A DNA stretch of 64,000 nt from Mucilaginibacter cryoferens (GTDB lineage: Bacteria > Bacteroidota > Bacteroidia > Sphingobacteriales > Sphingobacteriaceae), in assembly GCF_014205845.1 (NCBI RefSeq), contig NZ_JACHCR010000002.1:62001-126000 (forward strand), written 5' to 3'. The notes beneath the pieces are model-generated. The model was not told the origin of the DNA. It did not search any database and saw only the letters and a list, made by a program, of their open reading frames with translations. Shown here piece after piece: positions 39,516 to 58,950 of this stretch. Made by a program: the position numbers and the translations under genes. Position 1 is the first letter of the stretch; each line of letters begins with the position of its first letter.

Positions 39516-39571
39516 TAAAAATATGCTTATCCCGCCGGATGTTAAATAGACAATATCTTAAATTGAATGGA
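39516..39571 (-). promoter_or_regulatory. Regulon promoter S3, upstream of GH92
   Basis: On the minus strand TCCAT (39571-39567) is followed 21 bases later by TCTAT (39550-39546). TATTTTTA (39523-39516), a -7 element, starts 27 bases after the second half-site. The geometry is identical to S1, S2 and S4. Confidence 0.75.
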
Positions 39572-39587
39572 CAATTTGCTGAAATAA

Positions 39588-40490
39588 TTACCCGGTATTT
39601 TTTGCAGTAACGCGGTACTGCTCTGGCGATGAGCCAATATATTTTTTGAAAATGCGCGAGAAATAATAGGGGTCTTCGTAACCCAGGTGGGCAGCCACCG
39701 CCTTTATTTTATCGCCATTGGCGTATAATAGCTGGCAGGCTTTCTGCATTTTAAGGTGGATAAAATAGTCGATAGGTGGCATTCCGGTTGCCTTGCGAAA
39801 AAGGTTAGAAAAATGCGATACCGATAAATTATGTTTGCCGGCCATATCTTCAACACTTAGTTTTTTGTTGAGGTTATCGCGCATGTTGTGGATTGTTTTG
39901 GTGATAATGTCGCCTTCATCATCCGTATCGTGCTGAATGTGCCGCTCGGGCATTAAAAAAGTAGCTATAATGTGGTACAGGCAAAAGCAGGCGCTATTGA
40001 TGTTCTCCAGGCTGTAACCCATTTCCAGCGTTTGATAAATATTATGCCAGATAGTTATAGCATTTTCATTAAACGGAATATGTACCGGCCCCCTGGTAAT
40101 GCTTAAATTAAGCGATCTGTTAAATTCATCTATCTTATCGCCGGTAAAATGCACCCAATAAATGGTCCAGGGATCATCATTATCGGCCCAGTAACGTATA
40201 TATTTATCGGTTGCCGGTATTAGTATAAACTGATTGCTGTGTACTTCAAAACGTTTGTTATCAACAATGTAATGGCCTTTGCCTTGCAGGCAATATATTA
40301 ATATGTTGTCTTCGCAGCCTTTACGGCGCTCGCGATAGTGGAACGATGCTTTAGGAAAATAACCTATATGTGTAATGTAGATGTGAAAAAGCTCCGGGTC
40401 GCGTGTTTTGGCATCACGAAGCACTTTTTGAGGAATGCTGATGAATTTTTCACCCTCAAAACCCTGCCGTCTTTTAAAGCTGTTGCTCAT
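39588..40490 (-). CDS. AraC-family regulator with N-terminal cupin sensor
   Basis: A 300-residue activator. Residues ~35-160 form the cupin ligand-binding domain (KGCEDNILIYCLQGKGHYIVDNK ... NDDPWTIYWVHF). Residues ~195-295 hold two helix-turn-helix units (SVEDMAGKHNLSVSHFSNLFRKATG and KIKAVAAHLGYEDPYYFSRIFKKYIG). This type senses a sugar such as rhamnose, arabinose or, here, plausibly fucose. It lies between GH92 and the fucose operon and is the only regulator in the locus; no hybrid two-component or sigma/anti-sigma gene is present. Its likely targets are sites S1-S4. Confidence 0.92.
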   Translation of the reverse strand: MSNSFKRRQGFEGEKFISIPQKVLRDAKTRDPELFHIYITHIGYFPKASFHYRERRKGCEDNILIYCLQGKGHYIVDNKRFEVHSNQFILIPATDKYIRYWADNDDPWTIYWVHFTGDKIDEFNRSLNLSITRGPVHIPFNENAITIWHNIYQTLEMGYSLENINSACFCLYHIIATFLMPERHIQHDTDDEGDIITKTIHNMRDNLNKKLSVEDMAGKHNLSVSHFSNLFRKATGMPPIDYFIHLKMQKACQLLYANGDKIKAVAAHLGYEDPYYFSRIFKKYIGSSPEQYRVTAKNTG

Positions 40491-40631
40491 CTAAAAATAA
40501 TATATGGTGTAATTGGTTTTCAGTTGGATACTACATTTAAGGTAATGTAACATCGCACATAAAGGCTGCTATTATAGGCAAAACAATTTGCAAATACAAT
40601 CATTTATACCCAATTGTTAACGGGGCGCAGT

Positions 40632-40677
40632 ATTATTCTGCTAAATACTAATTCATCATTGTGTTTAGCAGAATAAT
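40632..40677. promoter_or_regulatory. 17-base inverted repeat upstream of the fucose operon
   Basis: ATTATTCTGCTAAATAC (40632-40648) and GTGTTTAGCAGAATAAT (40661-40677) match as inverted arms at 16 of 17 positions with a 12-base spacer. It ends where regulon site S4 begins. It may be a second operator, for instance for the divergent regulator gene. Confidence 0.6.
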
Positions 40678-40732
40678 CCATTAAAAAAAATGTTTTAACT
40701 ATTATAAACTACCAAACAGGGTTTTACTTTTG
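40677..40732 (+). promoter_or_regulatory. Regulon promoter S4, fucose catabolic operon
   Basis: TCCAT (40677-40681), then the weaker half-site ACTAT (40698-40702) 21 bases on, then TACTTTTG (40725-40732), an exact TAnnTTTG, 27 bases after the second half-site. Predicted start at about 40737. Confidence 0.7.
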
Positions 40733-40801
40733 GTTAATTCATAATAACCAAATATAACCGGGTCTGTTGATCCTGCTTTTGAAAAATTTGTTGATTATAA
40801 C

Positions 40802-40843
40802 TTTACAACAGGCGAACCGAAACCGCCTGTTGTAAACTTTTTT
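40802..40843 (+). terminator. Terminator hairpin in the leader of the fucose operon
   Basis: TTTACAACAGGCG (40802-40814) pairs perfectly with CGCCTGTTGTAAA (40824-40836), followed by C and six T. It points along the plus strand, lies after the S4 promoter and before the first gene, and no gene precedes it. It therefore looks like an attenuator or the end of a short leader RNA. Confidence 0.8.
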
Positions 40844-40918
40844 ATAAGGTAAAAGCCTTGAGGTTTAAATATTAAAGCATGGTGTGCTCTTTTTTCGCCG
40901 GCTTCAACTATAACATAT

Positions 40919-41731
40919 ATGCTACTAAAAAACAAAGTGATTTTTTTAACCGGCGGCACCGAAGGTATTGGCTTTGAGTGCGCTAAAATATACCGCGCCG
41001 CGGGGGCTAAGCTCAGTATTATATCTAACTCGGCGCCGAGTATTGAGGCCGCACGATTGAAATTACAATCAGACGAGATCTTGTACCTGAACGCCGACGT
41101 TGCCTCTGCAACGGATGTACAGCAGGCTATTATTAAAACGGTAAGCTACTTTGGCAAAATTGATGTGATCCATAACAACGCCGGTATTAGTAATCCTTCA
41201 AAAGCCCTACACGAAACTACTGAAGATGAATGGAATGCCCTTTTTAACGTAAACGTGAAAGGCATTTTTAACACCACCCGTTTCGGGATTGATGAATTAA
41301 AGAAAACACGGGGCAATATATTAAACACAGGCAGTCTTGTGGGCGATATCGGGCAGGAAATTCATGCCGCGTATAGCGCAACCAAGGGGGCTATCAATAC
41401 GCTAACCAAATCAATGGCATTAGATTACGCGCCTTACGGCATCAGGGTTAATGCCGTTGCACCTGCCGGTGTATGGACACCTATGCTGCGGGTATGGAGC
41501 AAGCAGCAACCCGATGCCAACTCTATTGAAAGCTACCTGGATGATATTCATGCGTTGGGTTATTGCCCCGAGGGAGATGTGGTGGCCGATGTATGTTTGT
41601 TTTTAATATCAGACCAGGCCCGTTTTGTAACCGGCTGTATTTTGCCGGTTACCGGTGGTGCCGAGTTAGGCTATCGCAGGGTTGTAAATCAAACCATTCA
41701 ATCTATCCCGCAAAAAAACAACCTTATATAA
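40919..41731 (+). CDS. Short-chain dehydrogenase, probable L-fucose dehydrogenase
   Basis: A 270-residue classical SDR with TGGTEGIG (11-18) for NAD(P), NNAG (86-89), and catalytic Ser139, Tyr152, Lys156 (YSATK). The C-terminal TGCILPVTGGAELGYR closely resembles the end of human HSD17B14, which oxidises L-fucose to fuconolactone. Together with the fuconate dehydratase one base downstream this points to L-fucose dehydrogenase. Oxidation of 2-keto-3-deoxy-L-fuconate is the main alternative. First gene of the operon, cytosolic. Confidence 0.8.
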   Translation: MLLKNKVIFLTGGTEGIGFECAKIYRAAGAKLSIISNSAPSIEAARLKLQSDEILYLNADVASATDVQQAIIKTVSYFGKIDVIHNNAGISNPSKALHETTEDEWNALFNVNVKGIFNTTRFGIDELKKTRGNILNTGSLVGDIGQEIHAAYSATKGAINTLTKSMALDYAPYGIRVNAVAPAGVWTPMLRVWSKQQPDANSIESYLDDIHALGYCPEGDVVADVCLFLISDQARFVTGCILPVTGGAELGYRRVVNQTIQSIPQKNNLI

Positions 41732-41732
41732 A

Positions 41733-42980
41733 ATGATCAAAAATATACAAGTTGATGATATTCGTTATAAGCTGGATGGTGCAGCCGGCAGCGACGCTAT
41801 ACACACCGATCCGGTTTACTCTTACGCCGTAACCCGTTTATTTGATGATAGCGGCCACACAGGTGTTGGCTTTGCTTTTACTTTGGGCGAGGGTAACAAC
41901 CTGGTTTGCAAAGCGGCGCAGTACTATGCTGATAAAATAAAGGGACGGGATATTGAAGATACGATGGCCAATTTTGGCGATTTATTTAAGAGTTTATCTA
42001 ACGATCAGCAATTTCGTTGGCTTGGGCCGCATAAAGGGGTAGTGCATTTGGCGCTTGCTTCGGTTACCAATGCCTGTTACGATCTTTGGGCCAAAAAACG
42101 AGGTGTTCCGCTTTGGAAATTATTGCTGGATCTATCGCCCGCGCAGATTGTTGCCACGCTCGATCTTTCTTATTTAGAGGATGAGTTGAACGAATATCAG
42201 GCTATAAAAATGCTGGCCTCACAGCAGGCAAGCCGCCCGGTGCGCGAAGGTATACTTACTGCAGGATATCCAGGTTATGATACCTCCATAGGCTGGTTCA
42301 ATTATTCTGATGAGAAAGTTAAGGAAAATTGCAAAATAGCTTTGGCCGAAGGTTTTACAGCTATGAAGTTAAAAGTGGGTTCGGTTAACCCCGAGCGGGA
42401 TATCCGCCGGGCGCATATTGTAAGGGAAGTTGCCGGTAACAATGTAAAGGTAATGCTTGATGCCAATCAGCAATGGAACCTGCCGCAGGCTATATCTATA
42501 TGCAATAAGCTAAAGAGTATGAACCCGTATTGGATAGAAGAACCCACCCATCCGGATGATGTACTGGCTCATAAAACCTTAGCTAACGCGATAGCTCCAT
42601 TAAAGCTTGCTTTGGGCGAGCATGTGCCCAATAAAATCATCTTTAAAAATTACCTGCAAACGGGTTCTGCATCATTTATACAAGTAGATGCGGTAAGAGT
42701 AGGGGGAGTAAGCGAATTTATCACTGTAAGTTTACTGTGTAAAAAATACGGGGTACCCGTTGTGCCGCATGTAGGCGATATGGGCCAGCTGCATCAGCAC
42801 CTGGTATTATTTAACCATATAGCCATGGGGCACGAGGCTTTGTTTTTAGAACATATCCCTCACCTGCAAAAACATTTTGTAAACCCGGTAAATATTAGTG
42901 GCGGCGTATACCAAACCCCACAGGTACCCGGAAGTAGCTGCGATTTGAAAATACTTGCCCCACCCAACCCTCCCCGGTAG
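41733..42980 (+). CDS. Enolase-superfamily L-fuconate dehydratase
   Basis: It dehydrates L-fuconate to 2-keto-3-deoxy-L-fuconate. The 415-residue protein has the acid/base Lys pair in MKLKVG (K212, K214), metal ligands Asp243, Glu269 and Glu296 (MLDANQQW, WIEEPTHPDD, LGEHV) and the His346 base in PHVGDMGQLHQHL. The end LEHIPHLQKHFVNPV is typical of fuconate dehydratases including human ENOSF1. The last seven residues, APPNPPR, and the stop codon are encoded by repeat copy E, so the natural C-terminus has been extended. It starts one base after the dehydrogenase stop. Confidence 0.88.
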   Translation: MIKNIQVDDIRYKLDGAAGSDAIHTDPVYSYAVTRLFDDSGHTGVGFAFTLGEGNNLVCKAAQYYADKIKGRDIEDTMANFGDLFKSLSNDQQFRWLGPHKGVVHLALASVTNACYDLWAKKRGVPLWKLLLDLSPAQIVATLDLSYLEDELNEYQAIKMLASQQASRPVREGILTAGYPGYDTSIGWFNYSDEKVKENCKIALAEGFTAMKLKVGSVNPERDIRRAHIVREVAGNNVKVMLDANQQWNLPQAISICNKLKSMNPYWIEEPTHPDDVLAHKTLANAIAPLKLALGEHVPNKIIFKNYLQTGSASFIQVDAVRVGGVSEFITVSLLCKKYGVPVVPHVGDMGQLHQHLVLFNHIAMGHEALFLEHIPHLQKHFVNPVNISGGVYQTPQVPGSSCDLKILAPPNPPR

Positions 42981-43095
42981 GGAGGGCTTTAAGAAATCTT
43001 ATGCCTCCATTGTAGATGAAGACATAAAAGAAGATTTATAAATAAAAATTTTAATTAATAAAGTCTCCCCTTTAGGGGGAGATTTAGAGGAGGCA
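42957..43095. repeat. Paired palindromic repeat, family AAGCCCC, copy E, overlapping a gene end
   Basis: Left arm 42957-42990 (GCCCCACCCAACCC, then TCCCCGGTAGGGAGGGC) lies partly inside the dehydratase reading frame. Right arm 43060-43095 (AAGTCTCCCCTTTAGGGGGA ... GAGGAGGC) ends 3 bases before the symporter ATG and supplies its GAGGAGG, a Shine-Dalgarno-like purine run (43087-43093). Confidence 0.85.
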
Positions 43096-43098
43096 TAC

Positions 43099-44754
43099 AT
43101 GATACATACACCAGATCTGATAATTAGTGCCTTATATATAGCTGTGATATTTATCATAGGGTTATGGTCGGGTATACGGCATCAGCGCAAAACAAGAAAT
43201 AATAATAACGAGGCTGGTGAGTACTTTCTGGCAGGTAAAAAACTGCGCTGGCCAATGATAGGGCTGGCTTTGTTTGCTACCAATATTTCTTGCGTACACT
43301 TGGTGAGCCTGGCGCAAAGCGGGTTTGATACCGGCTTGCTTAACGGCGATTTTGAATGGATGGCTGCATTTACACTGATATTGCTGGCTCTATTTTTTGC
43401 GCCTTTCTATATCAAATCCGGCGTATCAACATTACCCGATTTTTTGGAGAAACGTTATGACCGTGCCAGTCGCGACTGGCTGGCTATTATATCTGTAGTA
43501 TCGGCCGTATTGATCCATATTGCTTTCTCTTTATTAGCAGGTGGTATTGTATTACATACTTTGTTTGGGGTAGATATGTATACCAGTGTTATAATTATCT
43601 CTGTTATTACTACTATATATACGGTAGTTGGTGGTTTAACCGCTGTAGTGGTAACAGAATCTATTCAAACGGTGGTGCTTTTAGGTGGTGCCATTATTAT
43701 GAGTATTGCCGCCTATACCAAAATGGGGGGCTGGGAGCCTATGGTTGAAGTATTGAAACACAGTGGTCAGCTCAATAAACTATCTATGCTGCGCCCGCAC
43801 GGTGATGCCAGCGGGATGCCCTGGTACGCGGTGTTTTTAGGCTACCCGGTATTAGGTATTTGGTATTGGTGTGCCGATCAAACCATTGTACAGCGTGTTT
43901 TAGGTGCAAAGGATGTGAACCATGCAAGGGTTGGGCCGCTATTTTGCGGGTTTATAAAAATATTGCCTGTTTTTATTTTTGTGATGCCGGGGCTGTTTGC
44001 CTATACACTGGCCCAAAGCGGGCATTTGGATATTTCGGCCTTGAAAAGTGTGGTTAACGGTAAGGAGGTGGTGAACAGTAAAGGTATTTATACCCTCATG
44101 ATCACCCAGCTTATCCCTCCCGGATTGATAGGGGTATTGGTGGCCGCGTTATTGTCGGGCTTAATGAGCCAGATCTCGGGAGCGTTAAACTCTATATCAA
44201 CCATTGTAAGCTACGATATTTACAAACGATACAAGCCCGAGGCTACTGATAAAAAACTGGTGAGTATAGGCAAGATAGCCGCAGGGATAGCACTCATTGT
44301 ATCGTTACTGATGCTGCCCCTGCTTAATAGTTACGAGAGTATATTTAACGGGCTCAACGATATTATTGCCCATATAGCACCGCCTATAACCTGTGTGTTT
44401 TTATTGGGTGTGTTTTGGGATAAAGCATCGGCTATAGCTGCAAAGTATACATTGTGGATAGGCTCGGTAATAGGAGTGGTGGTATTTATAATAGGTAAAG
44501 TTTACCCTGTAAGTGCTATAGGCTCCATACCTTTTATGATGATGGCCTTTTACCTTTTTGTCATCTGCCTGTTTATGCAAATTGTATTATCCTACGTGTA
44601 CCCTGTTGTACATACTAAAGAAAGCGCTGCACTTTATTGGAAATCGCCGTGGGAGCCATTACGTGGAGCGGCCTGGAGTGGCCTGGGCAATTATAAAGTG
44701 CTTTCGGTTTTGCTGATAGGCATAATGGTTGTATTGTTTTACATTTTTAGATAA
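43099..44754 (+). CDS. Sodium/solute symporter (SSS family), probable fucose importer
   Basis: A 551-residue inner-membrane transporter with about 13-14 membrane segments and the SSS pattern, including GEYFLAGKKLRWPMIGLALFATNIS and the signature around WYWCADQTIVQRVLGAKDVNHARVGPLFCGFIKILP. It is related to SGLT-type sugar carriers. Its place between fuconate dehydratase and a mutarotase suggests Na+-driven uptake of L-fucose. Other deoxysugars are possible. The mutarotase gene follows after 6 bases. Confidence 0.88.
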   Translation: MIHTPDLIISALYIAVIFIIGLWSGIRHQRKTRNNNNEAGEYFLAGKKLRWPMIGLALFATNISCVHLVSLAQSGFDTGLLNGDFEWMAAFTLILLALFFAPFYIKSGVSTLPDFLEKRYDRASRDWLAIISVVSAVLIHIAFSLLAGGIVLHTLFGVDMYTSVIIISVITTIYTVVGGLTAVVVTESIQTVVLLGGAIIMSIAAYTKMGGWEPMVEVLKHSGQLNKLSMLRPHGDASGMPWYAVFLGYPVLGIWYWCADQTIVQRVLGAKDVNHARVGPLFCGFIKILPVFIFVMPGLFAYTLAQSGHLDISALKSVVNGKEVVNSKGIYTLMITQLIPPGLIGVLVAALLSGLMSQISGALNSISTIVSYDIYKRYKPEATDKKLVSIGKIAAGIALIVSLLMLPLLNSYESIFNGLNDIIAHIAPPITCVFLLGVFWDKASAIAAKYTLWIGSVIGVVVFIIGKVYPVSAIGSIPFMMMAFYLFVICLFMQIVLSYVYPVVHTKESAALYWKSPWEPLRGAAWSGLGNYKVLSVLLIGIMVVLFYIFR

Positions 44755-44760: not shown

Positions 44761-45234
44761 ATGTTTGGCAAAATAAATCCAGTTACGCTAATTTCTGTTA
44801 TTGCTTTTGTTTGCTGCGCCTACCTCCTGGTTAGTAACGTAAAGCAGCACAATCAGCTAATGCTGCAAAAGAATAGTGCATTTAAATTGCCGCCGGTACA
44901 GCGTTTTGGTATGGTAACCGGCTTAAAGCCCGAAAAGGTGGCGTACTATAAACAATTACATGCCCACGTATGGCCAGGTGTGTTAAAAAAAATAAAGGAG
45001 TGTAACATTCGTAATTACTCCATCTATATTCAAAAAATAGAAGGCAAGTACTTTTTGTTTAGCTATTTTGAGTATGCCGGCAATAATATGAAAGCCGATA
45101 TGGCCAAAATGGCTGCCGATACCACCACCCAACGCTGGTGGAAAGAAACCGATCCTACACAGAACCCGCTTCCGGAAGCCTTAGCTCAAAAAAAGCAATG
45201 GCAAAACATGGAAGAGGTATTTCATACCAACTAG
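44761..45234 (+). CDS. L-rhamnose/L-fucose mutarotase (DUF718 type), membrane-anchored
   Basis: A 157-residue protein. Residues ~50-157 are the RhaM-like mutarotase (FGMVTGLKPEKVAYYKQLHAHVWPGVL, active-site His in LHAHVWP, then IYIQKIEGKYFLFSYFEY and TTQRWWKETDPTQNP). This fold interconverts sugar anomers. The first ~25 residues are a hydrophobic anchor, an addition not found in the cytosolic enterobacterial enzyme. It may thus work at the membrane and feed the symporter or dehydrogenase. Last gene of the fucose operon. Confidence 0.87.
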   Translation: MFGKINPVTLISVIAFVCCAYLLVSNVKQHNQLMLQKNSAFKLPPVQRFGMVTGLKPEKVAYYKQLHAHVWPGVLKKIKECNIRNYSIYIQKIEGKYFLFSYFEYAGNNMKADMAKMAADTTTQRWWKETDPTQNPLPEALAQKKQWQNMEEVFHTN

Positions 45235-45572: not shown

Positions 45573-45628
45573 TCCATCTAATTTAAAGATTTATCCATTT
45601 CAAATACTTGCAAGGTAAATTAGTTTTA
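45573..45628 (+). promoter_or_regulatory. Regulon promoter S1, susC operon
   Basis: TCCAT at 45573-45577 and again at 45594-45598 (21 bases apart), then TAGTTTTA at 45621-45628, 27 bases after the second half-site. The predicted start near 45633 leaves a leader of about 385 bases. Confidence 0.75.
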
Positions 45629-45821
45629 CTAAACCAATAGTAACCAATTAAACTTATTAATATGCAAGAAAATTACTTTCCGTTAAATCCCATCTGATAG
45701 TATTGTTAATTTACCAAAGCCATAAATGGTAATTTAAGCTGATGCCCTTATTAAGTTGTATTACTTAATAGCATGGGTAAAACGTTGTACCATACAGCTT
45801 CGTGATTTTACTTTTCAAAAA

Positions 45822-45865
45822 ATGCTCTTATGAGCCATGGCAACGCTTTGCCGTTTTTTTCGGCA
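45822..45865 (+). promoter_or_regulatory. Terminator-like hairpins in the susC leader
   Basis: GCTC-TTAT-GAGC (45824-45835) is followed by GGCAA-CGCT-TTGCC (45839-45852), G, and seven T. The second arm can alternatively pair as TGCCG (45849-45853) with CGGCA (45861-45865) downstream, so a terminator and an antiterminator form would exclude each other. The stems are short. Confidence 0.45.
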
Positions 45866-46017
45866 GAAATAAATAAACTGTAAAATATACATTAATCAAC
45901 AATCAAAAAACAGCAGGGGGTAAAATATCAGCAAAAGCCTGCTGTGCCAATTAAATCATTAAAATATTACCTCAGTAATCTATTTAACCAATTAGTAAAC
46001 CAATAATTAACCAATTT

Positions 46018-49000
46018 ATGAGAAAATTTTACGATGTATTCAGGCGCCTTTGGGTGTTAAAAATTCCTTATAACTCATTAACAGCCGTAGGTGTGCTGCT
46101 TTTTGTGTTTATGGGTTTTGGCGTTGTTAACAAAGCGGCGGCGCAAACCAAAGTTACCGTAATAGGTACCGTTGTGGATAGCCTTGGTGTACCAATTATT
46201 GGTGCCAATATTGCCCCGGTAAATACAAAAGGCAATAGCACCGCTACAGACGGAAACGGTAAATTCCTTTTAGACGTTGAGGTTGGAGTTGTTTTGAAAA
46301 TAAGCTATATAGGCTATATTCCTAAACAAATAACCATTACCGCAAGCCAAAAGGTATTTAAAATAATATTAAGCGAAACCAAAAGCCAATTTGATGATGT
46401 GGTTGTAACGGCTTACGGCCGTAAGCAGGTTAAAGAAGCCATAGTAGGCTCGGTTACCACCGTAAAACCAGGTAATTTAAAAATACCTGCCAGTAACCTT
46501 ACCAATGCTTTGGCCGGCCAGGTGGCGGGTGTTATTGCATACACGCCAAGCGGACAGCCAGGGCAGGACAATTCTAAATTTTTTATACGGGGTGTAACTA
46601 CATTTGGCTACAAGCAAGATCCACTGATTTTGATAGATAACGTTGAGTTAACCTCAAATGACCTTGCACGTTTAAATGTGGATGATATCGAAAGTTTCTC
46701 GGTATTAAAGGATGCAAGTGCTACCGCGCTGTACGGCGCAAGAGGCGGTAATGGTGTAATTTTGGTAAAAACCAAAGAGGGCAAAGCAGGCAAGGCCCAG
46801 ATCAATTTCAGGGTCGAAAATTCAAGGTCGCAATCAACACAAACGCTTAAGCTGGCCGACCCTGTTACTTACATGAAGCTTTTTGATGAGGCTACACAAA
46901 CACGTTACCCACTAAATCCGTTGCCTTACACTCAAAATCAAATCAATAACACGCAAAATACCTTAAACAATGCACCAGGCAGTAATCAGTACGTTTATCC
47001 GGCTACAAACTGGGTTAATATGCTATTTAAACCGCATACCGATAACCAACGCGGTAATTTAAGTATACAAGGCGGTGGCGGTGTTGCCCGTTATTATGTT
47101 GCAGGCTCCTATAATAATGATAATGGTATATTAAGAACCGATATCAGGAACAACAATAATAACAATGTTAATTATAAAAATTATCAGCTACGATCAAACG
47201 TAAACATTAACGTTACCGCTAAAACCGAATTGATTGTCCGTTTATCAGGCACGTTTAATGAATACAATGGGCCAAGAAGCACAAATGGAGGTTTAGCAAC
47301 CGATTTATATAACCTGGCAGTGCATACCAGTCCGGTTGATTTCCCGGCTTATTATCCTGCCGATTCGGCCAATTTAAAAACCAAGCATATTTTATTTGGT
47401 AATGTACCTGCGGCAGGTGGTGGCGTTGGATCTACCAATTACATTAATCCATACGCGTCTTTACTTTCGGGGCACCAGAATTTTTCGGAGTCGAGAATGC
47501 TGGCCCAGTTGGAGTTAAATCAAAATCTTGATTTTTTAACCAGCGGGTTAAATTTTCATGCCATATTTAGCACCAACCGTTATGCATACTTTCAATCAGA
47601 GATGTATTATCAGCCTTTTTACTATAATGTAGGCAGCTATGATAAGGCAAGCAATCAATATACCTTAAACTGGATAAATTCGCAGCCAGGGCAGGCAACC
47701 GAGTATTTAATTTACAACAGAGATATTGGTTCTGATAACCTGCAAACTCAAACTTACCTGCAGGGTGTATTAGATTATAACAAAACTTTTGGGAAAGATC
47801 ATAACGTAAGCGCCGCTTTAATTGGTACCCAGCAACAACAATTATATTCTAACAACAAAGATCCTAACGGTAATTATACGCTGCAATACTCATTACCTTA
47901 CCGTAATGAAACTGTTGCCGGCCGTTTAACCTATTCATTTAAAAGCAGGTACTTTCTTGAAGGAAACTTTGGATACAATGGATCTGAACGTTTTTCTGCG
48001 AATCACAGGTTTGGATTTTTCCCAACAATTGGCGCATCGTGGATAGTATCCGACGAAAAGTTCTGGGGCAGTCTTTACAATGTGATCGACAGGTTTAAAC
48101 TGCGTGCCAGCTATGGCCTGGTAGGTAACGATCAAATTGGTAGCCAAAGGTTCTTTTATTTATCAGATGTTAATCTTAACGGTGGCAACCCGGCCTCGTT
48201 TGGTACAACTAACGGTTATACCCGCAATGGTGTAAGCGTAAATAGCTACGAAAACGACGATGTAACCTGGGAAACATCAAAGCAAACCAACTTAGGTGTA
48301 GAGTTTACTGTACTTAAGAAAATTAATGTTATTGCCGAGATCTACAAAAATAATAAGTACAACATTTTGCAAAACCGTTCTTCTATACCATCAACAATGG
48401 GTTTAGAAGCACCAATATCTGCTAACATTGGTAAAGCAGAATCGCAGGGTATTGATATTTCTATTGATGGAAAGCAAAACATAGGCCGCGACTTTTCGAT
48501 GGCTGTAAGAGGTAATTTTACTTATTCAACCAACAAATACACACAATACGAAGCGCCGGATTATCCGGAAGCTTACAGAGATCAGGTTGGGCAACCAATT
48601 AACCGTCAGTATGGTTATGTAGCCGAGAGGTTATTTGTAGATGATAATGAAGCAGCAAACTCGCCTTCACAAATTTTTAGTACCGGAGGATTTGCCCCCA
48701 AAGGAGGCGATATAAAATACCGGGATTTAAATGGCGATGGTAAAATTGATGCTGCCGATCAAACATTTATTGGTTACCCAACAGTGCCCGAAATTGTATA
48801 TGGGTTTGGTGTATCCGCTTCTTATAAAAACTTTGATCTTTCGGGCTTTTTCCAGGGCCAGGCTCATGTATCGTTTTTTATTGATCCGGCCCGTACCTCT
48901 CCTTTTATCAAAAGCCCCGATTCATATTATACAAGTAATACCCAATTGCTGCAGGCTTATGCTGATAACCATTGGTCTACAGATAACCAAAACCTGTATG

Positions 49001-49293
49001 CACTTTATCCAAGGCTTGGGCCAGATGGTGCTGTTATTGAAAATAACAGGCAAAACAGTACCTGGTGGCTGCGCGATGGCAGCTTCCTGAGGCTTAAATC
49101 TGTTGAGTTTGGTTACACATTGCCAATACGTATAGCTAAATATATAAGGGTTAAAAACTTAAGGGTTTACTTTAATGGCTTAAACCTGTTTACCTGGAGC
49201 CCTTTCAAATTATGGGACCCCGAGCTTGGCGGCAATGGCTTTGCATATCCAATTCAAAAAGTGTTTAACATAGGTTTAAATGTCAATTTATAA
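46018..49293 (+). CDS. SusC-like TonB-dependent outer-membrane transporter
   Basis: A 1091-residue outer-membrane importer for oligosaccharides. A signal segment ends near AAAQT (about residue 43). A carboxypeptidase-like CNA-B/CarbopepD_reg domain (about 48-125) follows, then the TonB-box region, the plug (about 130-250, ending LYGARGGNGVILVKTK) and the barrel. No STN domain is present, so it is not wired to an anti-sigma factor, in keeping with control by the AraC-type protein. It forms a complex with the SusD partner encoded 24 bases downstream. Confidence 0.96.
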   Translation: MRKFYDVFRRLWVLKIPYNSLTAVGVLLFVFMGFGVVNKAAAQTKVTVIGTVVDSLGVPIIGANIAPVNTKGNSTATDGNGKFLLDVEVGVVLKISYIGYIPKQITITASQKVFKIILSETKSQFDDVVVTAYGRKQVKEAIVGSVTTVKPGNLKIPASNLTNALAGQVAGVIAYTPSGQPGQDNSKFFIRGVTTFGYKQDPLILIDNVELTSNDLARLNVDDIESFSVLKDASATALYGARGGNGVILVKTKEGKAGKAQINFRVENSRSQSTQTLKLADPVTYMKLFDEATQTRYPLNPLPYTQNQINNTQNTLNNAPGSNQYVYPATNWVNMLFKPHTDNQRGNLSIQGGGGVARYYVAGSYNNDNGILRTDIRNNNNNNVNYKNYQLRSNVNINVTAKTELIVRLSGTFNEYNGPRSTNGGLATDLYNLAVHTSPVDFPAYYPADSANLKTKHILFGNVPAAGGGVGSTNYINPYASLLSGHQNFSESRMLAQLELNQNLDFLTSGLNFHAIFSTNRYAYFQSEMYYQPFYYNVGSYDKASNQYTLNWINSQPGQATEYLIYNRDIGSDNLQTQTYLQGVLDYNKTFGKDHNVSAALIGTQQQQLYSNNKDPNGNYTLQYSLPYRNETVAGRLTYSFKSRYFLEGNFGYNGSERFSANHRFGFFPTIGASWIVSDEKFWGSLYNVIDRFKLRASYGLVGNDQIGSQRFFYLSDVNLNGGNPASFGTTNGYTRNGVSVNSYENDDVTWETSKQTNLGVEFTVLKKINVIAEIYKNNKYNILQNRSSIPSTMGLEAPISANIGKAESQGIDISIDGKQNIGRDFSMAVRGNFTYSTNKYTQYEAPDYPEAYRDQVGQPINRQYGYVAERLFVDDNEAANSPSQIFSTGGFAPKGGDIKYRDLNGDGKIDAADQTFIGYPTVPEIVYGFGVSASYKNFDLSGFFQGQAHVSFFIDPARTSPFIKSPDSYYTSNTQLLQAYADNHWSTDNQNLYALYPRLGPDGAVIENNRQNSTWWLRDGSFLRLKSVEFGYTLPIRIAKYIRVKNLRVYFNGLNLFTWSPFKLWDPELGGNGFAYPIQKVFNIGLNVNL

Positions 49294-49317: not shown

Positions 49318-51228
49318 ATGAAATCGTATTATAAATATCTGTTCATGGCAGCGCTCGCAATCTCTTGCGTGTCATGTAAAAAGTACCTGGATGTTACGCC
49401 TGATAACGTAGGTACCATAGATTATGCCTTCAGGAACCGTAACGAAGCAGAAAATTATCTGTTTACCTGCTATGCTACATTGCAGCAATTGATATATCCG
49501 CAAAACAATCCGGGTTTTACCACCTCGGCCGAAATTGTATTTCCAAACGATCTAACGGATTTTCAGGGTATCGATCCAACCGGGTTTAACCTTATAAGGG
49601 GTACACAATCCAGCGCTAACCCAGGACTTAATTACTGGGATGGGGCAAATGGAGGTCAGGCCATGTTCAGGTCTATCAGGAGGTGCAATACCATGCTCGA
49701 AAACATTGACAAGCCTGTTGATTTAAGCGCGGATGAAAAGAAAAGGTGGATAGCCGAGGTTAAATTTCTTAAAGCTTACTATCATTTCATCTTATTCAGA
49801 CTTTACGGTGCAGTGCCAATTACTGATGTAAACTTGCCAATTAACAGCTCAACAGCCGAAGTACAGGTTAAAAGATCGCCGGTTGATTCTGTTGTGAATT
49901 ATATGGTGAGGTTAATAGACGAAGCAACGCCGGATTTACCAGCTATTATCCAAAATCAAACAAAAGAGCTTGGGCGTATAACCCAGCCTATAGCCCTTGC
50001 TGTAAAAGCACAGATACTTACCACAGCAGCAAGCCCCTTGTTTAACGGCAACCCCGATTATATAAGCATCAAAAATAAAGATGGTAAGGCACTTTTTCCT
50101 GCGGCCTACGATGCAACAAAATGGGATAAAGCCGCTGTAGCTACACTTGCAGCCATCACCTCTGCCGAAGCAAATGGTAATAAGCTGCATACATTTATAT
50201 CTCCTGCAAATGTTGGCGTGCTTTCAGATTCGCTGAAAACGGTAATGGATCTGCAAACTGCAATAACCGAAAAATGGGACCTGAACACCGAGATCATCTG
50301 GGCTTTAAATCCATATTTCCCCGGGCAAACCTATTGTGGACCAAGGTTAACAGCTAAGGCAGCTGCAAACCCATCGTTCCAGGGTACATTTGCTGTGCCA
50401 ATTGCCGAGCAGGAATTGTTTTATACCAATAACGGCGTACCTATTAATGAAGATAATACATTTGATTATACAAACCGTTACGGGCTAAGAACCGGTGATA
50501 AAGCAAGCCGGTTTTATATAGGTAACGGCTATACAACCGTTAACGCACACTTTAACCGCGAGCCAAGATTTTATGCCGATTTGGGTTTTGATGGTGGGAT
50601 ATGGTTTGGTAATGGCCTTGTGAGCCAGGAGAGTTTGTATTATATACAAGCCCGTGGCAGCGGTGCGTTAGCAGGCCCTACCGATAACATCAGGATAAAT
50701 ATTACCGGCTGCTGGCCAAAAAAACTGGTTAACTATTTAACAGTTTATGATGATGGCTACACCATAGCAGATTTCAGGATGCCGATAATAAGGCTTGCCG
50801 GCTTATACCTCCAATATGCCGAGGTATTAAATGAGCAGGGAAAATCATACGCAGAAGTTGTGCCATGGCTGGATAAGGTAAGGGCAAGGGCTGGTTTGCC
50901 GGGTGTAGTAAACGCATGGTCGAGCTTCTCTAAAAACCCAACTAAATTTACCACACAAGATGGCATGCGCCAGATAATACACCAGGAAACCCGTATAGAG
51001 CTAGCCTTTGAATGCGAACCAGGCTGGGACCTGCGCCGTTGGAAAGAGCTTCAAGACGTACTTAGCAAGCCATTACAAGGATGGAGCATTTATGAAGCCG
51101 ATGCGATAAACTTCTACCGTCCGCATACAGTAGTGGTACCTGTTTTTAACGTAAGGAATTATTTATGGCCAATAACCAATGATGATTTGGTAATTAATCC
51201 AAATCTTGTTCAAAACTTAAACTGGTAG
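49318..51228 (+). CDS. SusD-like starch-binding-type surface lipoprotein
   Basis: A 636-residue lipoprotein (lipobox SCVSCKK, Cys20) that caps the SusC barrel and binds glycans at the cell surface. TPR-like helices occur in the N half (MFRSIRRCNTMLENID, WIAEVKFLKAYYHFILFRLYGAVPI). The conserved end includes RIELAFECEPGWDLRRWK and FNVRNYLWPI. Length slightly above average. Confidence 0.95.
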   Translation: MKSYYKYLFMAALAISCVSCKKYLDVTPDNVGTIDYAFRNRNEAENYLFTCYATLQQLIYPQNNPGFTTSAEIVFPNDLTDFQGIDPTGFNLIRGTQSSANPGLNYWDGANGGQAMFRSIRRCNTMLENIDKPVDLSADEKKRWIAEVKFLKAYYHFILFRLYGAVPITDVNLPINSSTAEVQVKRSPVDSVVNYMVRLIDEATPDLPAIIQNQTKELGRITQPIALAVKAQILTTAASPLFNGNPDYISIKNKDGKALFPAAYDATKWDKAAVATLAAITSAEANGNKLHTFISPANVGVLSDSLKTVMDLQTAITEKWDLNTEIIWALNPYFPGQTYCGPRLTAKAAANPSFQGTFAVPIAEQELFYTNNGVPINEDNTFDYTNRYGLRTGDKASRFYIGNGYTTVNAHFNREPRFYADLGFDGGIWFGNGLVSQESLYYIQARGSGALAGPTDNIRINITGCWPKKLVNYLTVYDDGYTIADFRMPIIRLAGLYLQYAEVLNEQGKSYAEVVPWLDKVRARAGLPGVVNAWSSFSKNPTKFTTQDGMRQIIHQETRIELAFECEPGWDLRRWKELQDVLSKPLQGWSIYEADAINFYRPHTVVVPVFNVRNYLWPITNDDLVINPNLVQNLNW

Positions 51229-53760: not shown

Positions 53761-53796
53761 TAGTTGTATAATTTGAGTAGTAATATGTGAATAGAA

Positions 53797-53835: not shown

Positions 53836-53951
53836 TGGGCTTATTTGCAATTAGCGGGCACATGCTGTAATAACATAATAATTTGCTAAGATTGCTGTTT
53901 TGTAACGGCTGTTTTATGCAGATATTTAGCTCATCCGATTTTACCTGAAAC

Positions 53952-56237
53952 ATGATCAAAAAGATTTTTTTTATTAGCGCAATTACATTGCGGGTAGCGC
54001 TTACCTGCACCCTTAGCGCCCAAACACGCACACATACATCCAAACCCAATAACCTGATAGTGTGGGATAATAAACCCGCGAAAGAATGGATGACCGAGGC
54101 TTACCCTATGGGGAACGGCCGCTTTGGCGGGATGGTTTTTGGAGGACTTGTGCAAGAACATATCCAGTTTAACGAAATAAGCCTTTGGACAGGCGATGAA
54201 GAGGAGACGGGTTCCTACCAGGCTTTTGGCGATCTGTTTATTGATTTTAAAGGTAAGGATAGTACCCAGGCTGTGCCGGCAAATTATCGCCGCCAGGTTG
54301 ATATAAGCAAAGCTGTGCAACAGATCAGCTATAACGATAATGGCGTTAATTACAAACGGGAATACTTTTGCAGCCTGCCGGATAAAGTAATGGTATTGCA
54401 TTTTACTGCCGATAAAAGAGGAGCCTATTCGGCAATTATCAGCCTTAAGGATGCGCACGATTCAAAAATTACCGGTAGTGGTAATTCATTACAGTTTGAG
54501 GGCAAGCTGAATAATGGTTTGGCTTACAATGCAGCTATCACCATAAAAACAACAGGCGGTACCGCAACGGTTGAAAGTGATGGCAAGGGCGGCTCGCAGT
54601 TAAATATTAACCAAGCCGATGGTTTTACCATATTACTTTCGGCTGCAACAGATTACAGCAACAAACGCGAACAGCGCTGGCGTGGTGAGGCTCCCGGTAT
54701 TAAGGTGAAGCAAAGCCTGGATGCGGCATCAGCCAAAATATACCAGCAACTACTAAATACCCACGTAGCAGATTATTCGGCTCTTTTTGGCAGAGTTGCC
54801 ATAAATTTGGGTACAACACCGCCGCCAATGGCCGCAGAGCCAACCTATAAACGCCTCATCAACTACAAAATAGCGGCCGATCCGCAATTAGAAGCATTGC
54901 TGTATCAATATGGCAGGTATTTGCTTATCAATTCTTCACGTAAAGGAGGATTACCGGCCAACTTGCAAGGACTTTGGAACAACAGTAACAATCCGCCATG
55001 GCGAAGTGATTATCACTCCAACATCAACATACAAATGAATTACTGGCTGGCCGAGCCAACCAACTTGTCTGAGTGCCATATTCCGTACCTGGATTATATA
55101 AACAGTATGCGCGAGGTGAAAAAGGTAAGCACCCAAAAAGAATATCCCGGCGTACGTGGCTGGACAGTGAAAACCGAGAACGGTATTTACGGCGGCAGCA
55201 GCTTTTTGTGGAACACGCCCGGCAGCGCCTGGTATGCACAGGGCATTTGGGAACATTATGCTTTTACAAAAGATAAAGCCTACCTGCAAACTTTTGCTTA
55301 TCCTATTTTAAAAGAGATTGTAGAGTTTTGGGACGATCATTTAAAGCACCGCCCCGATGGTACACTGGTGTCGCCATTGGGCTGGTCGCCAGAGCATGGG
55401 CCAACAGAGGATGGGGTAACTTATGATCAGGAAATTGTTTATGACCTGTTCACCAATTACATTGCGGCGGCTGATGTTTTAAACGCAGATAAAAGCTATC
55501 GCGATCATGTGGCCGATATGCGTGACCATTTGCTGAAACCCAAAATTGGCAAATGGGGCCAGCTGCAGGAGTGGGAAACCGATAGGGACGATCCGAAAGA
55601 TACACATCGCCACTCGTCGAATCTTTTTGGTTTGCATCCCGGCAAGCGTATCAGCACTATAAAAACACCAGAGTTGGCGCAAGCAGCAAAGGTGAGTTTA
55701 TTGGCCCGTGGCGATGTATCAACAGGCTGGTCTATGGCCTGGAAAATGAACTTTTGGGCACGCTTACAGGATGGCGACCATGCCTATAAAATTCTGAATA
55801 ATTTTATCACCCTGGCCGGTGGCTCCGGTGTAAATTACAATGAAGGTGGCGGCGTATACGCTAATCTTTTCTGCGCGCATCCGCCGTTTCAGATAGATGG
55901 TAATTTTGGCTATACTGCCGGGGTTACAGAAATGCTGCTACAAAGCCAAACCGACGAAATTCAGTTATTACCGGCTTTACCAAAAGCCTGGCAAAAAGGT
56001 GATGTACAGGGCTTGCACGCCCGTGGTGATTTTGAGATAACAGATATGGAGTGGAAAGACGGTAAAATTACAAAGCTTGTTATTAAATCATTAGCAGGTG
56101 GCGCTTGTAGTTTAAGATCGCCCAATGCTTTGGCAGCTAATGCTGCTAATGTATCGGGTACAAAATTGAATAGCGACTTTAAATACCAGTTTGACACATT
56201 TGCAGGTAAAACTTATGTTTTTAACGGGGTTAACTAA
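53952..56237 (+). CDS. GH95 alpha-L-fucosidase
   Basis: An inverting exo-enzyme that removes alpha-1,2-linked L-fucose; some family members act on alpha-L-galactose. The 761-residue protein has a signal peptide (cleavage after TLSA), the N-terminal beta domain (about 35-270) and the (alpha/alpha)6 barrel (about 300-700). Conserved segments are HSNINIQMNYW (N357, N359), LGWSPEHGP (Glu481), HRHSSNLFGLHPG and RGDVSTGWSMAWK (Asp588). Probably periplasmic. The next gene starts 4 bases after its stop. Confidence 0.93.
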   Translation: MIKKIFFISAITLRVALTCTLSAQTRTHTSKPNNLIVWDNKPAKEWMTEAYPMGNGRFGGMVFGGLVQEHIQFNEISLWTGDEEETGSYQAFGDLFIDFKGKDSTQAVPANYRRQVDISKAVQQISYNDNGVNYKREYFCSLPDKVMVLHFTADKRGAYSAIISLKDAHDSKITGSGNSLQFEGKLNNGLAYNAAITIKTTGGTATVESDGKGGSQLNINQADGFTILLSAATDYSNKREQRWRGEAPGIKVKQSLDAASAKIYQQLLNTHVADYSALFGRVAINLGTTPPPMAAEPTYKRLINYKIAADPQLEALLYQYGRYLLINSSRKGGLPANLQGLWNNSNNPPWRSDYHSNINIQMNYWLAEPTNLSECHIPYLDYINSMREVKKVSTQKEYPGVRGWTVKTENGIYGGSSFLWNTPGSAWYAQGIWEHYAFTKDKAYLQTFAYPILKEIVEFWDDHLKHRPDGTLVSPLGWSPEHGPTEDGVTYDQEIVYDLFTNYIAAADVLNADKSYRDHVADMRDHLLKPKIGKWGQLQEWETDRDDPKDTHRHSSNLFGLHPGKRISTIKTPELAQAAKVSLLARGDVSTGWSMAWKMNFWARLQDGDHAYKILNNFITLAGGSGVNYNEGGGVYANLFCAHPPFQIDGNFGYTAGVTEMLLQSQTDEIQLLPALPKAWQKGDVQGLHARGDFEITDMEWKDGKITKLVIKSLAGGACSLRSPNALAANAANVSGTKLNSDFKYQFDTFAGKTYVFNGVN

Positions 56238-56241
56238 AAGT

Positions 56242-58095
56242 ATGCGGCGTAACTACAGGTATTTAGTTTTTTTGTTGCTGGTAGCTGCTTTTCATATAAC
56301 CTTACCTGCTTGCGCTGCTATACAATATACCGGTGTTAACGGGCGAATTATATCTCCCGGAAACACCGGCTATTATGTTGATGCCGCAAAAGGTGATGAT
56401 GCCAATACAGGAACAAGTAGGTACAAAGCCTGGAAAACGCTAAAACAAGTAAACAGCAGGATTTTTTCGGCCGGCGACAGGATTACAATTATTGGCCCTG
56501 CGGAGTTTAAAGAATCCTTATTCCTGGTGGCTCGGGGCAATAGTGAAAAACATATTAAGCTCACTTTTTTAAAGGGGACTTATGATTTTTATACTGAAAC
56601 AAGCTTTAAAAGGCAGTTTTTTATATCGAACACCAATGATGATGCCTATACGCCAAAGGCAATAGCAATATATATAGATAGTTCCCGGTATGTAGATATC
56701 GAAGCCGGGGGCGCGAAAATGGTGATGCGTGGTAAGATGATAGAAACCTGTATCGATCATAGCGAAAATATCATTATCCATGGCGCTACCTATGATTATC
56801 ATCGCCCAACGGTATCCGAATTACAGGTGCTTAAAACCGGGGATAATTTCGCGGAGCTAAAGATCCATCCCGATTCTAAATACAGCATCAAAGATAGTAT
56901 GCTTACGTGGGAAGGAGAGAGCTGGCGTTATAACTCCATTTCGTTATGGCAGGTGTTTAACCCGGCAACAGGTAACTTACAACGTACCAACATCAATATG
57001 GATGGGCTTAAATATGCAGAAACCGGCAACAACCTGGTGAGGGTATATTTTAAAAGCAACCCCGGTTTTAAAACCGGCCTTATTTATCAAAACAGGGATA
57101 TAACCCGAGATTGTACCGGAATATTTTTGTTGCGCAGTAAAAATTTACGGTTAAAAAATGTGCATATCAATTTTATGCACGGTATGGGCGTGGTAAGCCA
57201 GTTTTGCCAAAACATTACTATTGATTCGGTTTTTGTACGGCCAGCCTTAAACTCTGGCCGTACCTCTGCCGCTTGGGCCGACGTTTTACATTTTTCGGGT
57301 TGCAGGGGCAAAATAGTTATTACAAATTCATATTTATCGGGGGCAAATGATGATGCCGTTAATATACACGGCACTTATTTACGTATTATAAATAAGCCAC
57401 TGGCTAATCAGCTATTGGTTAGGTTTATGCATAACCAAACCTTCGGTTTCGAGGCTTTTGAGCAGGGAGATAGTATTGCACTTATTCATGCTAAAAGCCT
57501 GTTACAATATGGTACTAATGTGGTATCCCGGGTTGAAAAGATAAATGACAAAGATGTTCTGCTAACCTTTAAAAAGCCCGTAACAGAAACTATGGAACTA
57601 AATGACGTTATAGAAAATGTTACCTGGACGCCCGAGGTGTATATTGCTCACGATACTATTGCCCGCATCCCTACACGGGGTGTTTTAGTTACTACCCGCC
57701 GCAAGGCAATTATCGAAAAGAATGTATTTGAGGGTACCAATAATAGTGCGATAAGCATAGCCGATGATGCCGCAAGCTGGTATGAGTCTGGTATGATTAG
57801 TAACCTGCTTATCAGGTACAATAAATTTAATTTATGCGGAGAGCCTGCTATCGTGATAGCTCCCGAAAACACCCAAAGCAGTACACAAAAGGTACATAAC
57901 CATATTGTGATCACTCAAAACATTTTTAATCTATCATCGCCTGTAGCTATAGCTGCAAAAAGTTCTGCAGATATCAGCGTAGTAAATAACTATTTTAACT
58001 TACCCGGTGTAGCCGTAAAAGAAACCGACATAGTGAAATTTGAGGATTGTGCGGATATTCATTTATCCGGCAACAAAATTTCGGTAAAAAAGTAA
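56242..58095 (+). CDS. Right-handed beta-helix glycosidase, GH110-like alpha-1,3-galactosidase
   Basis: A 617-residue secreted protein (signal about 1-27). GYYVDAAKGDDANTGTSRYK opens the beta-helix domain. The segments CIDHSENIIIHGATYDYHRPTVSE, GMGVVSQFCQNITIDSV, LHFSGCRGKIVI and NDDAVNIHGTYLR correspond to what I remember of GH110, which removes alpha-1,3-galactose, including the blood-group-B galactose. Aspartates in ADVLHF and NDDAVN are candidate catalytic residues. The start is ATG 56242, 4 bases after the GH95 stop; an open frame extends further upstream inside the GH95 gene. Other beta-helix families cannot be excluded. Confidence 0.72.
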   Translation: MRRNYRYLVFLLLVAAFHITLPACAAIQYTGVNGRIISPGNTGYYVDAAKGDDANTGTSRYKAWKTLKQVNSRIFSAGDRITIIGPAEFKESLFLVARGNSEKHIKLTFLKGTYDFYTETSFKRQFFISNTNDDAYTPKAIAIYIDSSRYVDIEAGGAKMVMRGKMIETCIDHSENIIIHGATYDYHRPTVSELQVLKTGDNFAELKIHPDSKYSIKDSMLTWEGESWRYNSISLWQVFNPATGNLQRTNINMDGLKYAETGNNLVRVYFKSNPGFKTGLIYQNRDITRDCTGIFLLRSKNLRLKNVHINFMHGMGVVSQFCQNITIDSVFVRPALNSGRTSAAWADVLHFSGCRGKIVITNSYLSGANDDAVNIHGTYLRIINKPLANQLLVRFMHNQTFGFEAFEQGDSIALIHAKSLLQYGTNVVSRVEKINDKDVLLTFKKPVTETMELNDVIENVTWTPEVYIAHDTIARIPTRGVLVTTRRKAIIEKNVFEGTNNSAISIADDAASWYESGMISNLLIRYNKFNLCGEPAIVIAPENTQSSTQKVHNHIVITQNIFNLSSPVAIAAKSSADISVVNNYFNLPGVAVKETDIVKFEDCADIHLSGNKISVKK

Positions 58096-58099
58096 CTGG

Positions 58100-58190
58100 T
58101 GTTAAGTCAGTAGTCATTAGCTGGAAGTCATAAGTTGGATTTTTTTTCTTTTCTATATTTGGAACTAAAGACTTGGAGCCTATTTAAAAA
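58100..58190. repeat. Degenerate relative of the 45241 repeat
   Basis: GTTAAGTCAGTAGTCATTAG, then GGAAGTCATAAGT and AACTAAAGACTTGG, resemble the block at 45241-45320 in word content and order. Probably an old copy. Confidence 0.45.
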
Positions 58191-58207
58191 CAAATAAACA
58201 GATCGTC

Positions 58208-58544
58208 ATTGCTTCGTTGTACTTTCTTATAATGACAGGCTTTTAAAGTATTGATTATCAATATGTAATTTTAAAACACAGCACCATCGCCGCCGTCATT
58301 GAGGCACGAAGCAATCCCCGACTTACAGAGTAGTTGTTCAAATCCGCCCTGTAAGTAGGGGATTGCTTCGTCGTACCTCCTCGCAATGACATGGTTGTAA
58401 AGTGTTGATTTTCAGCATCTATCTTTTAAATACAAACCCCTCGCCACCGTCATTGAGGTACGAAGCAATCCCCGATTTACAGAGTAGCTGTGCAAATCCG
58501 CCCTGTAAGTAGGGGATTGCTTCGTCGTACCTCCTCGCAAGGAC
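58208..58544. repeat. Two tandem 154-base units plus a partial unit, each with a long hairpin
   Basis: Units 58231-58384 and 58385-58538 align along their whole length, and a partial third copy precedes them (58208-58236). Each unit contains GTCATTGAGG ... CGAAGCAATCCCC mirrored by GGGGATTGCTTCG ... CAATGAC (58295-58390 and 58449-58544), a 96-base imperfect palindrome. A further fragment of the same family lies at about 1704-1733. No gene here. Confidence 0.88.
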
Positions 58545-58894
58545 GGTTTTTTTTTAAGATGTCATTACTGTTTTTTCTGGGTTACCCCCGGTTGTCACTC
58601 AATGACGGCTGTATAAGGGCTTAATGGAGTGTGTAAAATGTCCTCGAAAACGTTTAAACAGGCTTTTAGTCCAATTAACTTTCTATAAACCATTGACGAA
58701 AACAGGATACAGACGTTTTTTGGTCTTAGCTGATGTGAAGTGTTTTCTCCATTTCTACATAACAAAATTGATACAAAGCATATTGCCGATGTAATAAGTA
58801 TATCAATGATTTAGCGATAGTATTGGTCATAAATGAGTTATCATAGCATAGTTCATATTTGTTTTATTTTACCATGATATATATCAGTGTATTG
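58545..58894. other. Intergenic region upstream of promoter S2
   Basis: No gene seen. AT-rich sequence between the tandem repeats and the regulon promoter. No strong hairpin or further regulon site was recognised. Confidence 0.5.
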
Positions 58895-58950
58895 TCCATC
58901 TTTTTAAAAGGTTTATCCATTTTTTAAAAAGTAATAAGCAGATACATTTA
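58895..58950 (+). promoter_or_regulatory. Regulon promoter S2, esterase-GH29-GH95 operon
   Basis: TCCAT at 58895-58899 and 58916-58920 (21 bases apart), then TACATTTA at 58943-58950, 27 bases after the second half-site. Leader of about 145 bases. Confidence 0.75.

Follow-up and report, generated by a model that had tools for sequence, protein, structure and literature searches.

The window considered here is a 64-kb stretch of the Mucilaginibacter cryoferens genome (contig NZ_JACHCR010000002.1, positions 62,001 to 126,000). It holds a cluster of genes predicted to serve L-fucose and glycan use, a gene for an AraC-type transcriptional regulator, and five copies of a paired promoter element (S1 to S5), in which two TCCAT-like half-sites are followed at a fixed distance by a -7-like octamer. 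These elements, which are probably the operators of one regulon, and the regulator gene are as follows.

S1: 45573..45628, plus strand; TCCAT-N16-TCCAT with the -7-like octamer TAGTTTTA; predicted promoter of the susC operon
S2: 58895..58950, plus strand; TCCAT-N16-TCCAT with TACATTTA; predicted promoter of the SGNH-esterase and glycoside hydrolase family 29 (GH29) genes
S3: 39516..39571, minus strand; TCCAT-N16-TCTAT with TATTTTTA; predicted promoter of the GH92 gene
S4: 40677..40732, plus strand; TCCAT-N16-ACTAT with TACTTTTG; predicted promoter of the fucose operon (short-chain dehydrogenase/reductase (SDR), enolase-superfamily protein, sodium/solute symporter (SSF), mutarotase), divergent from araC
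S5: 25325..25380, minus strand; TCCAT-N16-TCCAT with TACATTTA; just upstream of an orphan protein gene
Regulator gene: 39588..40490, minus strand; AraC-type regulator of 300 aa with AraC_binding (PF02311) and AraC-type helix-turn-helix (HTH; PF00165, PF12833) domains

Four of the elements, S1 to S4, had been described in a first-pass annotation of the window, and on re-reading their letters, coordinates and spacing were exact in every case. The 27-base distance given there is measured between the first bases of the second half-site and of the -7-like octamer, so that 22 bases separate these two elements. The set of four was present in full yet too small: S5, which has no mismatch to the full pattern and ends 26 bases before an open reading frame (ORF) of 255 aa, had been missed, and the genome holds at least nine sites, weak ones having been sought in fetched stretches only. 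When the window was scanned for the full pattern with TCCAT as second half-site and up to three mismatches, 7 matches were obtained, compared with a shuffle mean of 1.79, and none of 100 shuffles reached 7; two of the seven (10121 and 41443) look like chance.

Among 89 strong sites (score of at least 28, of 127 distinct sites), the half-site consensus is A-T-W-R-TCCAT-Y, followed by T-T-W-R-TCCAT-T-T. Counted back from the second TCCAT, these sites have TT at positions 12 and 11 and AAG at positions 8 to 6, and 105 regulator-linked sites give the same picture. The second half-site of S4 takes a form of its own (any base followed by CTATTATA, or nearly so), which differs from the other sites and is conserved as such in aligned orthologous intergenic regions.

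Enrichment and Spacing of the Sites

The genome scan (6.95 Mb in 64 contigs; control, the pattern read backwards) used TCCAT-N16-TCYAT-N22-TANNTTTR, the search that the first-pass annotation had proposed as a check, and returned 7 matches against none for the reversed pattern. S4 is not among these exact matches because its second half-site is ACTAT. Four of the seven are S1, S2, S3 and S5; the other three, and an inexact site, are listed here.

C1:416033: 45 bp upstream of a GH2-type gene (L068:7034-9988)
C8:191273: upstream of a second SusC gene, which is followed by SusD, DUF4959 and DUF4998 genes
C39:23150 (C39:23150-23205, L073): before a TonB-receptor-like gene
L071:16536: inexact, matrix score 22.8 (S4: 19.9); beside a paralogue of the regulator with 43% identity

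Downstream of the TonB-receptor-like gene on C39 lies a FecR gene, an extracytoplasmic function (ECF) sigma factor gene is nearby, and look-alikes of this site by letters, in divergent pairs, occur in G056, G102, and G080.

The half-site pair alone is useless as a genome scan, since TCCAT-N16-TCCAT without its promoter half occurs 44 times compared with 43 for the reversed pattern. Because the pair by itself is not enriched and the full pattern is, it is the promoter half, at its set distance, that carries the signal. The spacing is rigid. With TCCAT-N14to18-TCCAT-N20to24-TAnnTTTR, 14 genomes, chosen for their richness in sites, yielded 70 matches, of which 61 have N16/N22, 3 have N16/N21 and 6 are spread over six other combinations (reversed control, 7 in all, hand count). 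Spacing was also tallied in 80 loci surrounding regulator homologues (the best of 337), of which 40 are from Mucilaginibacter, including metagenome-assembled genomes grouped with them, and 40 from other genera. A TCCAT-TCCAT period of 21 is found in 32 pairs in the Mucilaginibacter loci and 21 in the others, with at most 11 and 9 for any other period from 5 to 45. An offset of 27 to TAnnTTTR occurs 29 and 17 times, respectively, with at most 5 and 7 for any other offset from 20 to 35. The combination of both (21, 27) accounts for 25 of 28 triples in the Mucilaginibacter loci and 13 of 19 in the others.

Co-occurrence and Conservation

The sites co-occur with the regulator. For the genus, 120 genomes were sampled evenly from a larger group, and a homologue was defined by an E-value of 1e-40 or better. 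The exact site is found in 62 of 78 regulator-bearing genomes and in none of the 42 others (Fisher p 1.9e-19), counts and p values here and below being taken without regard to kinship among genomes. Among the 150 listed of a larger number of sites, 105 have a gene of the regulator clade within 25 kb on the same contig. In 166 genomes from other genera of the family, a scan that required TCCAT as both half-sites detected sites in 27: 23 of 55 genomes with a homologue, compared with 4 of 111 without (Fisher p 1.4e-9). Here, a regulator homologue is found within 25 kb of 22 of the 37 places, and the reversed control gave 4 matches in the 166 genomes (hand count).

Orthologous loci were compared in the window and in 15 of the 77 other regulator-bearing genomes of the genus (closest homologues). 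An S4-type site occurs in 16 of 16 aligned intergenic regions including the window (matrix scores 11.5 to 21.6, threshold 9), and it precedes the SDR gene in 15 and a GH95 gene in G080. Of the 16 loci, the window included, 14 have S2 upstream of the SGNH gene; in G043 and G067, a site stands between the SGNH gene and a GH95-like gene. S3 is found at all five close GH92 orthologs including that of the window (scores 17.4 to 35.7), as well as at four of five GH92 relatives of 37-38% identity. S5 is kept before the orphan-gene orthologs in G103, G119, and G025, at a distance of 26-28 by coordinate difference. S1 precedes susC in six of nine susC-bearing loci, again counting the window, and is absent from three (G103, G102, G020), where the best stretch scores below zero. 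The S1-less loci have two ORFs of about 195 and 331 aa before susC, which in G103 (L137:3759-6342, the only locus of the three scanned) encode an ECF sigma factor and a FecR protein; thus, the G103 importer seems to have changed its regulator.

With the 150 listed sites as training set, a weight matrix was built and applied to the homologue loci of other genera at a threshold of 18 bits. It located 29 sites in 27 of 40 loci and none in reversed sequences, and no site falls inside an ORF of 80 aa or more. The genera covered are Pedobacter, Dyadobacter, Siphonobacter, Arcticibacter, Desertivirga, Sphingobacterium, Chitinophaga, Flavobacterium, and Niabella, together with Bacteroides sp. 51 and Chitinophagales. 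The next gene is susC-like at 9 of the 29 sites, GH95-like at 4, an SDR gene at 3, an enolase gene at 1, and a SusD-like gene at 1 (3.3 kb away). In the Mucilaginibacter loci, the same matrix gave 56 sites against 0 in reversed sequence, a set that overlaps the training data. In Flavobacterium (L219, L214, L222, L224, L225), an ORF of about 327 aa follows the site at 290-299 bp; the only such ORF scanned (L219:8252-9235) matches Pfam RE_BstXI with 227 bits, an odd neighbor for a sugar regulator.

These data also bear on whether an ordinary promoter feature, or chance alone, accounts for the pattern, an idea that could draw on the half-site pairs at N16, which are as common as their reversed control once the promoter half is left out. 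Set against it are the 7 to 0 count genome-wide, the absence of the site from 42 regulator-less genomes, and the 29 to 0 count in other genera, and it is barely credible as an account of the whole set. Some single sites are nonetheless chance, because the reversed pattern is matched 15 times in the 120 genus genomes (hand count).

The AraC-Type Regulator and its Paralogues

The regulator scores 37.2 bits against PF02311 (cut-off 21.1), and both PF12833 and PF00165 are above their cut-offs, so that it carries an AraC-type DNA-binding domain. Its best NCBIfam model is AraC PRK10572.1, at 89 bits and below the cut-off of 208; it may work like AraC, but it is not classed as an AraC equivalog. The assignment of the sites to an AraC-type protein, as first proposed, gains from the co-occurrence, from the sites around homologues in other genera, and from the rigid spacing, and is probably correct. 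The genome encodes three further full-length relatives, two of them beside sites. Thirty-two matches to the regulator exist in the genome at an E-value of 1e-5 or better; four, including itself, are near full-length (100, 75, 43, and 35% identity), and the others are weaker and cover part of the protein. The 43 and 35% copies adjoin sites (L071:16536 and L072:6273), and for that reason the box belongs to a clade of regulators rather than to one protein. Both copies are in a sister locus (G000:C8:180503-205000, L071 and L072), which has two clade regulators, a second SusCD set, and sites of its own.

The sites might be read by another paralogue (the 75% copy, G000:C2:4033, or the 43 and 35% copies on C8) or by several, with the regulator of the window controlling part of them. 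Four clade members in one genome make this conceivable, and since sites also stand beside the 43 and 35% copies, the paralogues seem to read the same box. On the other hand, the intergenic region next to the window regulator itself contains S4, such a site was found there in 16 of 16 loci, and no matrix match of 18 or more occurs in C2:1-40000, the home of the 75% copy (the contig starts 4 kb before it). Control by a paralogue is the most serious of the alternatives, and still distinctly less likely than control by the regulator encoded in the window.

A hybrid two-component system (HTCS) or an ECF sigma factor could also be imagined to read the sites. HTCS motifs of Bacteroides are likewise direct repeats, with an average distance of 21 bp, according to the available part of PMC3878776, and a histidine-kinase-like protein is encoded at 12829-14160. 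However, no HTCS was found among the 29 Pfam-scanned of the 46 window ORFs of at least 120 aa, the ECF/FecR pair in G103 stands before susC where S1 has been lost, and the sites track the AraC clade. The regulator itself has 300 aa and no kinase match, and thus lacks the sensor, kinase and AraC-domain architecture of an HTCS. Such a reader is very improbable.

Genes Under the Sites

The genes downstream of the five elements, with the pathway they suggest, are:

37178..39463, minus strand: GH92, under S3
40919..41731, plus strand: SDR dehydrogenase, L-fucose dehydrogenase by context
41733..42980, plus strand: enolase-superfamily protein, L-fuconate dehydratase-like
43099..44754, plus strand: sodium/solute symporter (SSF)
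44761..45234, plus strand: RhaM-type mutarotase
46018..49293, plus strand: SusC-like TonB-dependent receptor, under S1
49318..51228, plus strand: SusD-like protein
53952..56237, plus strand: GH95 (fucosidase family)
59099..61036, plus strand: SGNH/GDSL-like esterase, under S2
61065..62378, plus strand: GH29-type alpha-L-fucosidase (PF01120)
24531..25298, minus strand: orphan 255-aa protein downstream of S5, with a signal-peptide-like start (by eye)

An L-fuconate dehydratase-like gene beside a sugar dehydrogenase gene, the mark of the oxidative L-fucose pathway, is present here by similarity. The enolase-superfamily protein scores 340 bits with the PDB L-fuconate dehydratases 2hne/1yey and 363 with the human-type ENOSF1 entry 4a35, and the nearest solved structure of the SDR protein is 17-beta-HSD14. 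In humans, fucose and fuconate are substrates of HSD17B14 and ENOSF1. The SDR protein reaches 143.6 bits with the FucosDh model (cut-off 300); other SDR models score higher, and none among the best 25 of 223 reaches its own cut-off. Since all of these models fall short, the predicted role of the SDR protein rests on its context. A lactonase and the final pathway enzymes are not among the four genes of the S4 operon, the genome at large not having been searched for them. L-fucose is the best guess for the sugar because the pathway genes, GH95 and GH29 share the locus. Oxidative fucose loci have been described in Halomonas and others (PMC5507952), and the accessible part of that paper contains nothing on the present regulon. 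PMC12125979, on XylRA, likewise gave no help with it, nor did PMC4850484 and PMC10105728, which mention AraC just generally or inside longer words. The orphan protein has no match in Pfam or NCBIfam; its family comprises 110 listed proteins including itself, and the named ones are mostly from Mucilaginibacter.

The predicted susC mRNA has a leader of about 390 bases (window 45628-46018) with a short ORF from 45662 (MQENYFPLNPI), the ATG of which lies 41 bases after the -7 TA and stands at the same place in six aligned S1-type leaders of the genus. It is possibly a leader peptide. Similar starts (MQHNYFQLKPI, MQKIYLHR, MKHFYKNQ...) occur at 36-43 bases, and a loose M..Y rule fits 32 of 127 sites, partly by chance. 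An Rfam scan of window positions 37000-64000 gave nothing at gathering thresholds.

Proposed Mode of Action

Taken together, S1 to S5 are quite likely, with a probability of about 0.8, the operators of one regulon, in which an AraC-type activator would control the oxidative L-fucose pathway and glycan-uptake genes. A dimer of the 39588-40490 protein would bind two head-to-tail half-sites of approximately [AT]T[AT][AG]TCCAT[TC] that lie 21 bp apart, a period which would place both monomers on one face of the helix. The pairs have the form of a direct-repeat operator, with head-to-tail half-sites at a period of about 21 bp beside the core promoter. The proximal half-site occupies the position of the Bacteroidota -33 box, 27 bp before the -7 element TAnnTTTR, so that the bound protein could hold polymerase at promoters without a good -33 box. 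The proximal monomer would then contact polymerase and activate it as at E. coli araI1-I2. From S4, the protein would turn on the oxidative L-fucose pathway, and from S1 the SusCD importer along with downstream genes such as GH95; S2 would serve the esterase and the GH29 fucosidase, S3 the GH92 gene, and S5 the orphan protein. The inducer would presumably be L-fucose or a derivative.

Several observations weigh against this interpretation besides the neglect of kinship, the choice of site-rich genomes, the unenriched half-site pair, and the loss of S1 from three loci, as described above. The exact site is missing from 16 of the 78 regulator-bearing genus genomes, 45 of the 150 listed sites have no clade gene within 25 kb, and the reversed control is matched 15 times, twice in regulator-less genomes. 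The second half-site of S4 (ACTAT) is weak. In other genera, 13 of 40 loci have no site, and 11 of the 29 sites precede genes without a BLAST match to window proteins. Lastly, the three full-length paralogues could share or divide the sites.

The regulator could instead be a repressor that is relieved by fucose. A protein bound at the proximal half-site, which overlaps the -33 region, could block polymerase; the fixed distance to the -7 element, however, argues for a polymerase contact, and E. coli AraC activates from the same arrangement at araI1-I2, as described in the available part of PMC4760080. Repression is therefore improbable, and activation is preferred.

A further conserved element lies upstream of S4:

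40568..40577, plus strand: conserved GCTATTATAG element, located some 129 bp upstream of the second half-site of S4

A scripted search placed a CTATTATA element in 14 of 16 orthologs, 128-130 bp upstream of the second half-site of S4; G014 was added as a fifteenth by hand, and none was found in G067. The 40568..40577 element could serve as a distal half-site or belong to the araC promoter.

Comparison with Known Systems

The closest geometry is that of E. coli AraC at araI1-araI2 of PBAD. In the E. coli K-12 record, box B of this region reads TCCATA, the period is 21, and 26 bases separate the I2 box from the -10 element. The likenesses are (i) a TCCAT box in the araI1 half-site and a head-to-tail period of 21 bp; (ii) the distance from the proximal box to the -10/-7 element, 26 bases in E. 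coli and 27 here; (iii) a weaker proximal half-site, as in S4; and (iv) the HTH2 stretch (GFDDQLYFSRVFKK against GYEDPYYFSRIFKK). The last is weak evidence because this stretch is near the general family consensus. Niland and colleagues are said to have reported in 1996 that HTH2 reads box B. In contrast, the E. coli half-site TAGC-N7-TCCATA agrees with the present sites in box B only, as box A is TAGC in E. coli and TT..AAG here. BLASTP between the two proteins is significant over the DNA-binding domain only (34% over 76 aa), and the other promoter boxes and the operons differ.

E. coli AraC activates from araI1-I2 and loops to araO2 (PMC4760080, available part). It is tempting to propose that the TCCAT box-B code and the araI1-I2 geometry belong to a single old recognition system that both Proteobacteria and Bacteroidota retain despite a changed core promoter and box A, and that the S4 operon is in addition repressed through an AraC-like loop from the CTATTATA element about 129 bp upstream to S4. 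This combined proposal is speculative and rather unlikely.

Within Bacteroidota, RhaR of Bacteroides is also an AraC-type regulator of deoxyhexose use with a direct repeat of 21-bp periodicity (PMC3870299, available part). Unlike the present regulator, it serves rhamnose and has a single target operon (PMC3878776, available part), and the two are likened by repeat period, not by motif letters. Bacteroides HTCS share the AraC-type DNA-binding domain, the direct repeats with a 21-bp average distance and SusCD targets, but are hybrids with periplasmic sensor, kinase, and receiver domains, as the same source describes them, whereas the window regulator has 300 aa and an AraC_binding domain. FucR of B. 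thetaiotaomicron (BT1272) likewise regulates L-fucose use in Bacteroidota, yet it is given there as a GntR-family protein with a single target operon.

Implications

Direct repeats of 21 bp are a known kind of operator among AraC-family and HTCS regulators. No account of an AraC-type fucose regulon like this one in Bacteroidota was found in the open-licence literature, judged mostly by title and abstract and with RegPrecise outside the search. The sites provide a fully specified and testable operator for AraC-type regulators of a clade found repeatedly across Bacteroidota, here linked with the use of fucose and glycans, and the predicted fucose regulon gains the orphan protein under S5. The -33 box is hard to find in Bacteroidota; in Flavobacterium johnsoniae, for instance, it could not be identified, according to the available part of PMC7366714. 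The fixed 21/27 layout says where an activator should sit at such an unusual promoter, and it would make a sugar-inducible promoter for Mucilaginibacter and its relatives easy to predict.

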